Assembly (NCBI RefSeq): GCF_036030735.1
Contig: NZ_CP107928.1
Location: 1,178,001-1,242,000 of the forward strand
Source: Streptomyces sp. NBC_00425
GTDB lineage: Bacteria; Actinomycetota; Actinomycetes; Streptomycetales; Streptomycetaceae
Direction of reading: 5' to 3'
DNA: 64,000 nucleotides
Shown here one piece after another: positions 5,735-59,794 of this stretch (its first letter is position 1; each line of letters opens with the position of its first letter). The notes under the pieces were generated by a model. That model saw only the letters and a list, made by a program, of their open reading frames with translations, was not told the DNA's origin and did no database searches. The position numbers were made by a program, and so were the translations under genes.

Positions 5735-6691
5735 TCACTCCCCCACGGCGACGTAACGCCACACCGTGCCGTCGTCGTCCGCGTCCTCGTCTGCGTCGCC
5801 GCGGTCGAGGTCCACCTCGACGCCCGCGGTCTCGAGGGTCTGCCGGACGCGCTCCTGGAGCGGCTCGCTGAGGTAGTGGTGGTGCAGGTCCAGCTTCCTG
5901 AGGTGGTTGAGGGGCTGTCCGTCGAGCAGGGCGGTGGCGCCCTCGTCCGTGAGCACGCCCATGGAGAGGTCCAGCACCTCCAGCCGGGGCACCACCGGGG
6001 CCGCCGCGATCGCGCCGGCCACCGCGTCCTGGATCTCGCTGTTGCGCAGGGCCAGGTGCCGCAGGCGGGGCAGGCGGGCGCCGGACAGGATCGGCTCGAG
6101 GTCGGCCGCCTCGCTGTCGCCGCCGTATTCGGGCGTGCCGAGCCACAGGTCCAGGTGCTCCAGCGCGGGCAGGTCGCTGCCGGCCACCCCGCGCACGACC
6201 TCGGCGGGCAGCCCGCCCGCCTCGATCACCAGCCGGCGCAGCGAACCGTGGCTCAGGGCGGGGAAGCGCAGCCCCGACCCTCCGCGGACCCCGAGCTCCT
6301 CCAGCGCGGGGAACGCCTTCAGGAGCGGGGTGACGTCGGTCTGGTTGATCCAGGAGATCTCGCACTCCTCCATCACCATGTCGCCGAAGAACAGCGCGCG
6401 CAGGGCCGGGAACCGGTCCCGGGCGGCGGTCAGCGCCTCGACGACGGGCGTGGGGTCCTCCTCGTAGGCCTCCTCCCACGCTCCGACGATCAGCGCCCTC
6501 ACGCGGGTGGTGTCGACCGCGGCGCAGAAGCGCGCGAACACGTCCGTCCATTTCTCGTCGGCGTCGTAGACGTCGCTGGTGACGCGCCAGGCCACGGAGT
6601 CCGGATCGACCGGCCGCGGCTTGTGCCGGGCGCCGGGAAACGTGTGGGCGGGCAGCCCGTGGAGCGCCTTGAGGTGTTCACCGATGGTCAT
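5735..6691 (-). CDS. STM4015 family protein, leucine-rich-repeat type
   Basis: First gene of the STM4015-STM4011 operon, 318 residues. From about residue 95 to 275 it shows irregular leucine-rich repeats (for example FPALRALFFGD, LPALEHLDLWLG, LPRLRHLALRNSEI and VPRLEVLDLSMG, spaced 25-30 residues). These predict a curved solenoid for protein or ligand binding, not catalysis. The C-terminus is an acidic Asp/Glu run. A GGGAG ribosome-binding site precedes the ATG. By family knowledge, STM4015 proteins accompany STM4011-4014. A scaffold or substrate-recognition role for the two radical SAM enzymes is inference. Confidence 0.85.
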   Translation of the reverse strand: MTIGEHLKALHGLPAHTFPGARHKPRPVDPDSVAWRVTSDVYDADEKWTDVFARFCAAVDTTRVRALIVGAWEEAYEEDPTPVVEALTAARDRFPALRALFFGDMVMEECEISWINQTDVTPLLKAFPALEELGVRGGSGLRFPALSHGSLRRLVIEAGGLPAEVVRGVAGSDLPALEHLDLWLGTPEYGGDSEAADLEPILSGARLPRLRHLALRNSEIQDAVAGAIAAAPVVPRLEVLDLSMGVLTDEGATALLDGQPLNHLRKLDLHHHYLSEPLQERVRQTLETAGVEVDLDRGDADEDADDDGTVWRYVAVGE

Positions 6692-57400: not shown

Positions 57401-57700
57401 GTGGATGCGCCAACCACGCTCGTCGTCGTCGTGGCGGTGGCAGCCGTCGCGGTGTTCGCCGCGGCCGCCGCGGTGCTGACGCGGCTGATCCGGACCCGCC
57501 GGGGTCTCAGACAGGCCGGACTGCCCACCGGCCCGCGCTGGGTGTTCTGGGGGGCGGTTCTGTACTTCGTGTTTCCGGCCGATCTGCTGCCGGATCCGGT
57601 CTATCTCGACGACGTCGGCATGCTTCTGCTGGCCCTGCGTTCACTGCGCCGCGCCCCCGACCGCACCACCGGGAACGTGTCAGAACGGGTCCCCGACTGA
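57401..57700 (+). CDS. YkvA/DUF1232-like small membrane protein
   Basis: A 99-residue protein from GTG 57401, with GGGGAGG just upstream. One transmembrane helix at the N-terminus (TLVVVVAVAAVAVFAAAAAVL) is followed by the DUF1232 core (WVFWGAVLYFVFPADLLPDPVYLDDVGMLLLAL), which has the LLPD and D-DD motif residues typical of YkvA proteins. It is probably a cytoplasmic membrane protein. Family function is unknown. It ends 224 bp before the graspetide precursor gene. Confidence 0.82.
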   Translation: MDAPTTLVVVVAVAAVAVFAAAAAVLTRLIRTRRGLRQAGLPTGPRWVFWGAVLYFVFPADLLPDPVYLDDVGMLLLALRSLRRAPDRTTGNVSERVPD

Positions 57701-57794: not shown

Positions 57795-57825
57795 GGAAAC
57801 CAACCACCCGTTCGATTCGTATAAG
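57795..57825 (+). promoter_or_regulatory. ECF-like promoter candidate for the graspetide locus
   Basis: GGAAAC (57795-57800) and CGTATAAG (57818-57825) are separated by 17 bp, resembling ECF sigma (SigE-like GGAAC and CGTC) promoters. It would give a leader of about 90 nt before the precursor ATG. A plain TATAAG-type -10 is the alternative reading. Confidence 0.4.
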
Positions 57826-57923
57826 TGACTGAAGGGCGCACCCACCCAGCACAAAGCAGCGGGCCCGAGTGACGTCGCACAGCGGCACCGCTTGATCGAG
57901 GCAGTACCGACGAGGGAGAGACG

Positions 57924-58115
57924 ATGCAACCGTTCACGCTCAACTACGCACGCCCCGCGGCTGAGTTGGAGTTTGCCACTCCGTATGCCTACGACCCCGG
58001 AATGCAGTTGAACGTAACTTTCGACGGCCGGATCGCCGCTCGCGACCACGCCCTCCTGCGCGAACTGGCGACCACCACCTCGACAGCGGGCTCCAAGACC
58101 CACTTCGACGACTGA
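57924..58115 (+). CDS. ATP-grasp-modified RiPP (graspetide) precursor peptide
   Basis: A 63-residue precursor with a GAGGGAGAG ribosome-binding site. The leader has the conserved PFTLNYARP block (residues 3-11) and a YDPGMQLNV segment (23-31). The C-terminal core TTTSTAGSKTHFDD (50-63) holds four hydroxyl residues and one Lys as likely nucleophiles, with Asp62-Asp63 as carboxylates. This is the composition of graspetides, in which an ATP-grasp ligase joins Thr/Ser/Lys side chains to Asp/Glu as ester or amide links. The ligase gene starts 17 bp downstream. The pairing and number of links are inference. Confidence 0.88.
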   Translation: MQPFTLNYARPAAELEFATPYAYDPGMQLNVTFDGRIAARDHALLRELATTTSTAGSKTHFDD

Positions 58116-58132
58116 ACACAGGCCGACGAAAA

Positions 58133-59119
58133 ATGACCGTGCTCATCCTGACCTGTGAAGAAGACGTCACGGCGGACATGGTGGTCGTGCACCTGAACGC
58201 CGCGGGCGTCCCCGTCGTCCGGCTCGATCCGGCCGACCTGACCCATACCGTCGCGCTCTCCGGCGAGTACGTGCACGGAGCCTTCCGTGGCCATCTGTCC
58301 TCCGCCGGACGGCTGGTGAGCCTCGAGGGGCTGCGGTCGGTGTGGGTCCGCCGGCCCGGCTCCCCGGCGGCCCGGGCGTCCCAGCCGTCCTCGTGGCTGA
58401 CGGAGGAGGCCTCGCAGGCGCTCTACGGCATGCTCCGAGGGACGGGGGCGCGCTGGATGAACCACCCGGACGCTTCCGTCCGGGCCCGGCACAAGCCGTG
58501 GCAGTTGCGGCTCGCACAGCGCAGCGGCCTGCCCGTGCCCGCCACGATCGTCACGACGTTCCCGCAGGCGGCCCGTGAGTTCGCGGACCGCTATCCGGAC
58601 CTGGTGGTCAAGCCGGTGTCCGGGGCGCATCCGCAGGATCCGCCCCGGGCGGTGCCCACCACGAGGGTCCCGCCGGACGCCGACTTCGCCGCCGTCGCCT
58701 ACGGCCCGACGCTGCTGCAGCGCCGGGTGGCCAAACGGGCCGACATCCGGCTGACCGCGGTCGGTGACCGCCTCCTCGCCGCCCGCAAGGACACCGTCCC
58801 CGGCGATGACCCCGACGTGGTGGACGTGCGCTATACGCCGTCCGCCACGCCCTGGCGTCCCGCCGACGTGCCGCCGCGCCTGGCCGAGGCGGTGCGGACG
58901 TATCTGCGGGAGGCGGAACTCGCCTACGGGGCCTTCGACTTCGCGGAGGACGCCGACGGAACCTGGTGGTTCCTGGAGTGCAACCAGTCGGGTCAGTTCG
59001 GCTTCGTGGAGGTGGACACCGGTCAGCCCATCGCCCGCACCATCGCCGAGTGGCTGGCCGGGCCGCCGGCGGAGCGCGACGCCCGGCGGGTCGACCGGTG
59101 CGGTTCCGCGGCCCCGTGA
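58133..59119 (+). CDS. ATP-grasp peptide ligase (graspetide maturase, SAV_5884-like family)
   Basis: A 328-residue ATP-grasp ligase. The N-terminal pre-ATP-grasp domain is at 1-110 and binds leader peptides in relatives. The catalytic part has Lys160 (DLVVKPVSGAHPQ), KRADIRLTAVG at 201-211, and the Mg-coordinating residues Asp269 (GAFDFAED), Glu282 and Asn284 (FLECNQSGQFG). It would activate an Asp carboxylate of the core as acyl-phosphate for attack by a Thr, Ser or Lys side chain. The ribosome-binding site is weak, so translation may depend on the precursor gene. No methyltransferase of the isoaspartate-type, which usually follows this family, is adjacent. The Asn/Glu residues are intact, so activity is expected. 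Confidence 0.9.
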   Translation: MTVLILTCEEDVTADMVVVHLNAAGVPVVRLDPADLTHTVALSGEYVHGAFRGHLSSAGRLVSLEGLRSVWVRRPGSPAARASQPSSWLTEEASQALYGMLRGTGARWMNHPDASVRARHKPWQLRLAQRSGLPVPATIVTTFPQAAREFADRYPDLVVKPVSGAHPQDPPRAVPTTRVPPDADFAAVAYGPTLLQRRVAKRADIRLTAVGDRLLAARKDTVPGDDPDVVDVRYTPSATPWRPADVPPRLAEAVRTYLREAELAYGAFDFAEDADGTWWFLECNQSGQFGFVEVDTGQPIARTIAEWLAGPPAERDARRVDRCGSAAP

Positions 59120-59270: not shown

Positions 59271-59519
59271 TCAGACGGCCAGCGACAGTCCGTCCGAGCC
59301 CTCCGCGGGCGTACGCGTCTGCGGCACGGACTCCAGCAGGGCGTCAGCCGCTGCGACCGCCTCCCGGACGTCGGACGTGCCCATGAGCACGCACAAGGTG
59401 TATGTCACGTCCTGGAGTTCACGAGCCGCCTGCGGCGTCTCCCTCTCCGCCTGTGCGATCTTCAGCGTCGCGTAGCGGGTCAGCAACGTCCTGGCGATTT
59501 TCGGATCCGGAACGATCAC
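59271..59519 (-). CDS. DUF5133 family protein
   Basis: An 82-residue protein from GTG 59517-59519, with AGAGAGGGGC upstream. VIVPDPKIARTLLTRYATLKIAQAERETPQAARELQDVTYTLCVLMGT is the hallmark of DUF5133, a small helical actinobacterial family, often found near secondary metabolism and regulatory genes. No function is known. It converges on the ligase gene with 150 bp between them. The bases beyond the start contain a further open frame of unclear coding value. Confidence 0.85.
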   Translation of the reverse strand: MIVPDPKIARTLLTRYATLKIAQAERETPQAARELQDVTYTLCVLMGTSDVREAVAAADALLESVPQTRTPAEGSDGLSLAV

Positions 59520-59794
59520 GAGCGCCCCTCTCTCTGTTGTGCGCTGCGTGTGCCCGGACTCCGGCGAATCATGCATGACACACGGACTTGTCACTCCCCA
59601 GGGGCACGATCCGGCCACGGACGGTCAGGCGATCCGGGCGCTGTGCGGGCCGCTGTCGGCCGCAACGCGGGTGCGCTCGAGCAGCATCCGGCCGGAGGTC
59701 GGCCGGATGAAGTCGATGACGAGGCCGAGCCCGATGGACGTGCCGGCTCCGTGCGACGACGACGTCGTCGACGTCCGTCCTCCCGGTGGTCGTG

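Follow-up and report, generated by a model that had tools for sequence, protein, structure and literature searches.

We analysed a stretch of 64,000 nucleotides of Streptomyces sp. NBC_00425 (the window), in which two adjacent genes on the forward strand make up a compact graspetide locus. The first gene, at 57924-58115, encodes a precursor of 63 residues of the Strep_pep/GRASP_targ type, which in profile searches scored 118 bits against PF14404 (Strep_pep) and 47.5 bits against TIGR04186 (the cut-off is 25 for both). The second, at 58133-59119, encodes an ATP-grasp graspetide synthetase of 328 residues that matched TIGR04187 with 380.8 bits (cut-off 350) and PF21068 with 33.4 bits (cut-off 27), as is found in synthetases of the MvdD/TIGR04187 type. 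These matches bear out the preliminary description of the stretch as far as the precursor and its adjacent ATP-grasp ligase are concerned. Strep_pep is named in a passage of PMC8939145 among the precursor families that date back to a 2009 survey.

The precursor gene is preceded by a presumed ribosome-binding site, GAGGGAGA, on the forward strand at 57912-57919, most bases of which are kept in the upstream alignment. Residues 3-11 of the precursor form the leader motif PFTLNYARP (57930-57956), which is presumed, by analogy with graspetide leaders generally, to be the docking site of the ligase; P3, F4, L6, Y8, A9, R10, and P11 show no variation in 81 loci (the window locus and the 80 relatives described below). 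The core region TTTSTAGSKTHFDD starts approximately at residue 50 and extends to residue 63 (58071-58112), is invariant in 81 of 81 loci, and contains Asp only at its two C-terminal positions and none in the loop. The window locus thus has the adjacent precursor with a leader motif and a core rich in donor and acceptor residues that characterize a graspetide locus. Further upstream on the same strand is a conserved promoter-like block of 32 nucleotides (57795-57826), which consists of GGAAAC (57795-57800), 17 nucleotides, CGTATAAG (57818-57825), and a final T (57826).

Conservation of the core and of the upstream block

A scan of species genomes gave 454 relatives of the ligase, and the best 80 were taken, 79 of which are titled Streptomyces and one 'Actinobacteria bacterium'. 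In each of these best 80 of 454, a precursor gene immediately precedes that of the ligase. Overall precursor identity is 73-95%, and the last 14 residues do not differ in any of the 80. Because these loci are the closest of the 454 relatives, the sample favours orthologues, and a wider genome sample was therefore added. Of 199 genomes of the genus, 107 gave a PF14404 match, which exceeded the cut-off in 105 and covered the full length in 104; a 396-genome phylum sample gave 9 genomes with a match, and all 9 belong to the same genus. The codons of the core vary synonymously at most positions across the 81 loci, with zero amino-acid changes. The T50 codon, for example, is ACC in 56, ACG in 21, and ACA in 4 loci; for F61, D62, and D63 even the codons are constant. 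Unlike the 14-residue core, the leader is variable at many positions. Since the core is fixed while its codons and the leader change, strong purifying selection acts on the product, which points to a conserved target. The synonymous-only variation, together with the presence of the gene pair in 80 of 80 loci, indicates that the pair is not a product of chance.

The upstream block shows 0-4 mismatches to its consensus in all 80 related loci and 1 in the window. A neighbour of the main clade (L107) has 6 mismatches, and the divergent paralogues described below (L113-L148) have 15-19, which is the level of a stray match. A genome-wide search at three or fewer mismatches gave no second copy of the last 22 nucleotides of the block. 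A sigma-70 promoter scan of the locus found no consensus match, and terminator and Rfam scans gave no result. The arrangement of GGAAAC, 17 nucleotides, and CGT resembles ECF promoters, and we infer that an ECF sigma factor may recognize the block and place the genes under stress control, as the preliminary description had suggested. The conservation of the spacer suggests that a further protein may be bound there.

Relation to prunipeptin and the predicted rings

Prunipeptin was reportedly described by Unno and Kodani in 2021 from Streptomyces prunicolor (MIBiG cluster BGC0002725), and its cluster presumably consists of just two genes. One of the best 80 loci (L030) comes from S. prunicolor NBRC 13075 and is a two-gene locus with its precursor at positions 5793-5984. 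In the S. prunicolor genome the MvdD-type pre-ATP-grasp domain was matched three times; at two of the three ligase loci a neighbouring gene encodes a TIGR04188 methyltransferase that exceeds the cut-off, and the third is the two-gene locus. Since it is the sole graspetide-ligase locus of S. prunicolor without a PIMT-type neighbour, the two-gene locus is very probably that of prunipeptin. As there, a PF14404 precursor with the same core lies directly upstream of the ligase in the window. The two ligases are 83% identical over residues 1-316, and the two precursors differ at 14 of 63 positions, all of them in residues 5-49. The preliminary description had regarded the product as previously undescribed, a claim that an identical characterized locus with a known product was to overturn; the S. 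prunicolor locus, with its identical core, is very probably such a locus. The locus in the window is a common one that has almost certainly been described before, and its product has very probably been made already.

In a reference entry in PMC13097080, prunipeptin is called a bicyclic peptide and is assigned to a cryptic cluster of S. prunicolor. According to a passage in PMC11888242, the cluster family of BGC0002725 has 3,589 members, 99.53% of them in Streptomyces, and this almost complete restriction fits both the frequency of PF14404 within the genus and its genus-only occurrence in the phylum sample. An antiSMASH table for one Streptomyces strain in PMC13127372 gives prunipeptin (78%) as the nearest known cluster for two regions.

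We are confident that the window holds a prunipeptin-type two-gene graspetide locus, the ligase of which would build a bicyclic peptide through D62 and D63 without an aspartimide. The ligase would dock on the leader (PFxLNYARP), as the published relative and the chemistry of graspetides lead one to expect, and would use ATP to activate the C-terminal D62 and D63 as acyl phosphates. Each activated Asp would then be joined to a hydroxyl group of Thr or Ser or to the amine of K58, and the outcome would be a bicyclic peptide that has lost 2 x 18 Da and contains no aspartimide. The general order of events in graspetides, an acyl phosphate followed by attack of Ser, Thr, or Lys, is given in a passage of PMC13097080; ring formation and the number of rings are predicted here by analogy with the published relative and this chemistry. 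The two C-terminal Asp residues allow two side-chain rings, which agrees with the word 'bicyclic' in the title of the prunipeptin report. The C-terminal carboxylate may, in addition, form a link of its own.

The choice of donor was approached through paralogues, which were collected from forty genomic stretches, picked towards low-scoring or second copies, and from seven loci of the 396-genome phylum sample. Together with the 81 earlier loci they gave a comparison set of 127 precursors ending in THFDD and 125 distinct ligases; one locus (L147, in genome G086), in which the frame of the Strep_pep precursor is interrupted before the core, was dropped. T51, S53, T54, A55, G56, S57, T59, H60, F61, D62, and D63 are constant in all 127 precursors. 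T50 is replaced by Ala or Ser in 5 and T52 by Ala in 5, and K58 is replaced by Gln in 11 and by Ala in 8. Since Gln or Ala takes the place of K58 in 19 of 127 precursors, a Lys-Asp amide is not universal. The links between Asp and Thr, Ser, or Lys proposed in the preliminary description stand as candidates, but the one involving Lys does not extend to the whole family. Two readings follow: K58 may not be a donor, or the paralogues without it would make a different ring.

The first of these readings, to which we give somewhat less than an even chance, is that both rings are esters between Thr or Ser and Asp (nested, for example, with T51 linked to D63 and T54 to D62), which leaves the Lys free to vary. 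It would account for the replacement of K58 in precursors in which T51, S53, T54, S57, T59, D62, and D63 are all fixed. The 19 replacements, however, belong to a single paralogous group (L113-L119, L121-L127, L130, L135, L137, L141, and L148, all without the conserved upstream block), which falls within one clade of 20 in the ligase tree (support 0.84); the remaining member, L120, has K58 and the T52A replacement. The ligase of this clade may have changed its chemistry, whereas K58 is invariant in the 91-member ligase clade that contains the window. In addition, every precursor with T52A retains K58, and every one with Gln or Ala at position 58 retains T52, which would fit two residues able to replace each other, although the absence of the double replacement from the 127 precursors is without statistical weight (Fisher p = 1.0) and T52A arose in about two events on the tree. 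The natural paralogues with Gln or Ala in place of Lys58 offer a handle on the selection of an amide or an ester link by the ligase.

The same genome contains a second graspetide-like pair outside the window (L092, 8869-9135 and 9132-10085; G000:C1:9238868-9240084). Its precursor of 88 residues ends in a tail rich in Cys, Ser, and Asp, SASESCSCGCSDDCCVDCP, which has no Thr or Lys and raises the question of whether Cys serves as a donor. The ligase of this pair scores far below the TIGR04187 cut-off, and its relatives at E <= 1e-60 are found in 10 of 199 genus genomes (itself included). The Cys-rich tail is retained in 6 of 11 loci of this type.

Neighbouring genes and the role of the peptide

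The ORFs of the 81 loci were predicted with a rough caller and grouped, and the 25 largest groups were examined with Pfam. Since the caller missed 25 of the 81 known precursors, the counts are lower bounds. The most frequent neighbours were a DUF5133 protein (at least 72 of 81 loci; 59271-59522 in the window), a small DUF1232 protein (at least 52; 57401-57700 in the window), a protein of about 400 residues without a Pfam match (at least 49), an AraC-type regulator (at least 39), and an aldo/keto reductase (at least 37). The small DUF1232 and DUF5133 genes flank the window locus and recur beside the locus in many species. Less frequent were a DUF5753 regulator (at least 16 of 81 loci, with DUF397 in at least 12), a PF04672 SAM methyltransferase (at least 13), and two groups of PF02653-type ABC permeases of the branched-chain amino acid type (at least 11 and at least 7). 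Some 4-5 kb downstream of the locus, DUF397, the DUF5753 regulator, and PF04672 occur as a group in at least 12-16 of the 81 loci, for example at 9402-11597 of L034; PF04672 was not among the window ORFs scanned. A passage in PMC13097080 reports the DUF397-DUF5753 pair beside graspetides of groups 11 and 13; unlike there, the pair accompanies a minority of the 81 loci. Among the representatives of the recurring neighbour groups we recognized neither a protease nor an exporter of the RiPP type; the conserved neighbours were rejected as tailoring, export, or immunity genes.

The open-access literature searched yielded no biological role for the peptide, and the near-constant peptide sequence in so many species makes this role intriguing. 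It is possible, though we think it doubtful, that the product is not a secreted antibiotic but stays within the cell or bound to its leader, where it would serve as a regulatory or protein-bound element. The lack of a recognizable protease or exporter in the recurring neighbour families is consistent with such a role, as is the constancy of the core across many species, which contrasts with fast-evolving antimicrobials. However, genes for export and processing may be unlinked, and PF02653 permeases, probably bystanders, are encoded some 5 kb downstream of the locus in at least 11 of the 81 cases, the window among them. Moreover, of 28 single-contig genomes, 23 carry the locus no further than 15% of the contig from one of its ends, a region in which secondary-metabolite genes are common. 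A broader proposal, which we regard as rather improbable taken as a whole, is that the invariant cyclic peptide, present in about half of Streptomyces species and in the main branch equipped with its own conserved promoter, would be a genus-wide signal or cell component and not an antibiotic, and that the paralogues lacking K58 would have swapped an amide for an ester by way of Thr52.

The methyltransferase and comparison with known graspetides

The preliminary description had also stated that no PIMT-type methyltransferase lies nearby, that the ligase family commonly includes one, and that the gene might be encoded elsewhere. The first statement was correct, since the sole TIGR04188 match in the window, at about 31357 and some 27 kb from the locus, scored 16.8 bits. 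The second holds for the family but not for the branch to which the locus belongs. Among the top-scoring 100 genus ligases listed, a TIGR04188 match lies no more than 3 kb from 82 and Strep_pep no more than 1.5 kb from 10; no ligase has both neighbours, and 8 lack both. The score ranking favours the PIMT-linked branch, so that 82 to 10 is not a frequency ratio. Among the matches listed, none of 115 places with full-length Strep_pep has TIGR04188 within 10 kb. When three PIMT-type queries were compared with the flanks of the 80 loci (at most 6 kb, and shorter than 5 kb to one or both sides in 11 loci), none of the 80 matched, whereas the other two loci of S. prunicolor did. Absence of the methyltransferase is thus normal for the Strep_pep branch, and no gene elsewhere is needed; this PIMT-free branch is an ordinary part of the ligase family, and the window locus falls within it. 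The genome search gave the third statement little to stand on. Of 16 TIGR04188 matches at E <= 10 across the whole genome, the best (G000:C1:6248503-6249417) reached 266 bits, below the cut-off of 380, lies about 5 Mb from the locus, and has no TIGR04187 ligase nearby, for which reasons it was rejected as a dedicated partner. That the peptide is a graspimiditide modified in trans by such a protein is therefore very improbable: this distant protein, the frequency of such partners among the top-scoring ligases listed, and the non-PIMT PF04672 gene present some 5 kb downstream in at least 13 of the 81 loci speak for it, but TIGR04188 matches of any kind at E <= 1e-60 occur in 183 of 199 genus genomes, the flanks compared in the prunipeptin-type loci match none of the three queries, and the two Asp residues of the core are putative acceptors, leaving no Asp in the loop.

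Among synthetases of known structure, PDB 9bou_A is identical to the window ligase at 257 of 314 aligned residues (577 bits), and this branch of ligases therefore already has a structure; our literature search found no publication on it. Synthetases of the microviridin type and related graspetide synthetases (PDB 5ig8, 5ig9, 7m4s, and 7mgv) are likewise ATP-grasp enzymes that align over nearly the full length but, unlike 9bou_A, match weakly, with about 75-95 bits. The locus resembles those of the group 13 graspimiditides (fuscimiditide, amycolimiditide, and albusimiditide) in that the PIMT-linked ligases of the genus also belong to TIGR04187. Passages in PMC13097080 and PMC13001092 describe group 13 as almost always having a PIMT-type methyltransferase and a methylated Asp in the loop; at the window locus we found neither a TIGR04188 methyltransferase nor a loop Asp available for methylation, and the two PIMT-linked ligases of S. 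prunicolor show no more than 39% and 34% identity with the window ligase. The closest likeness is to the probable prunipeptin locus (taken as L030/L101), which shares with the window the precursor and ligase as its only genes, the identical core, and the same upstream block, and from which the window precursor departs in 14 of its 63 residues, none of them among residues 50-63.
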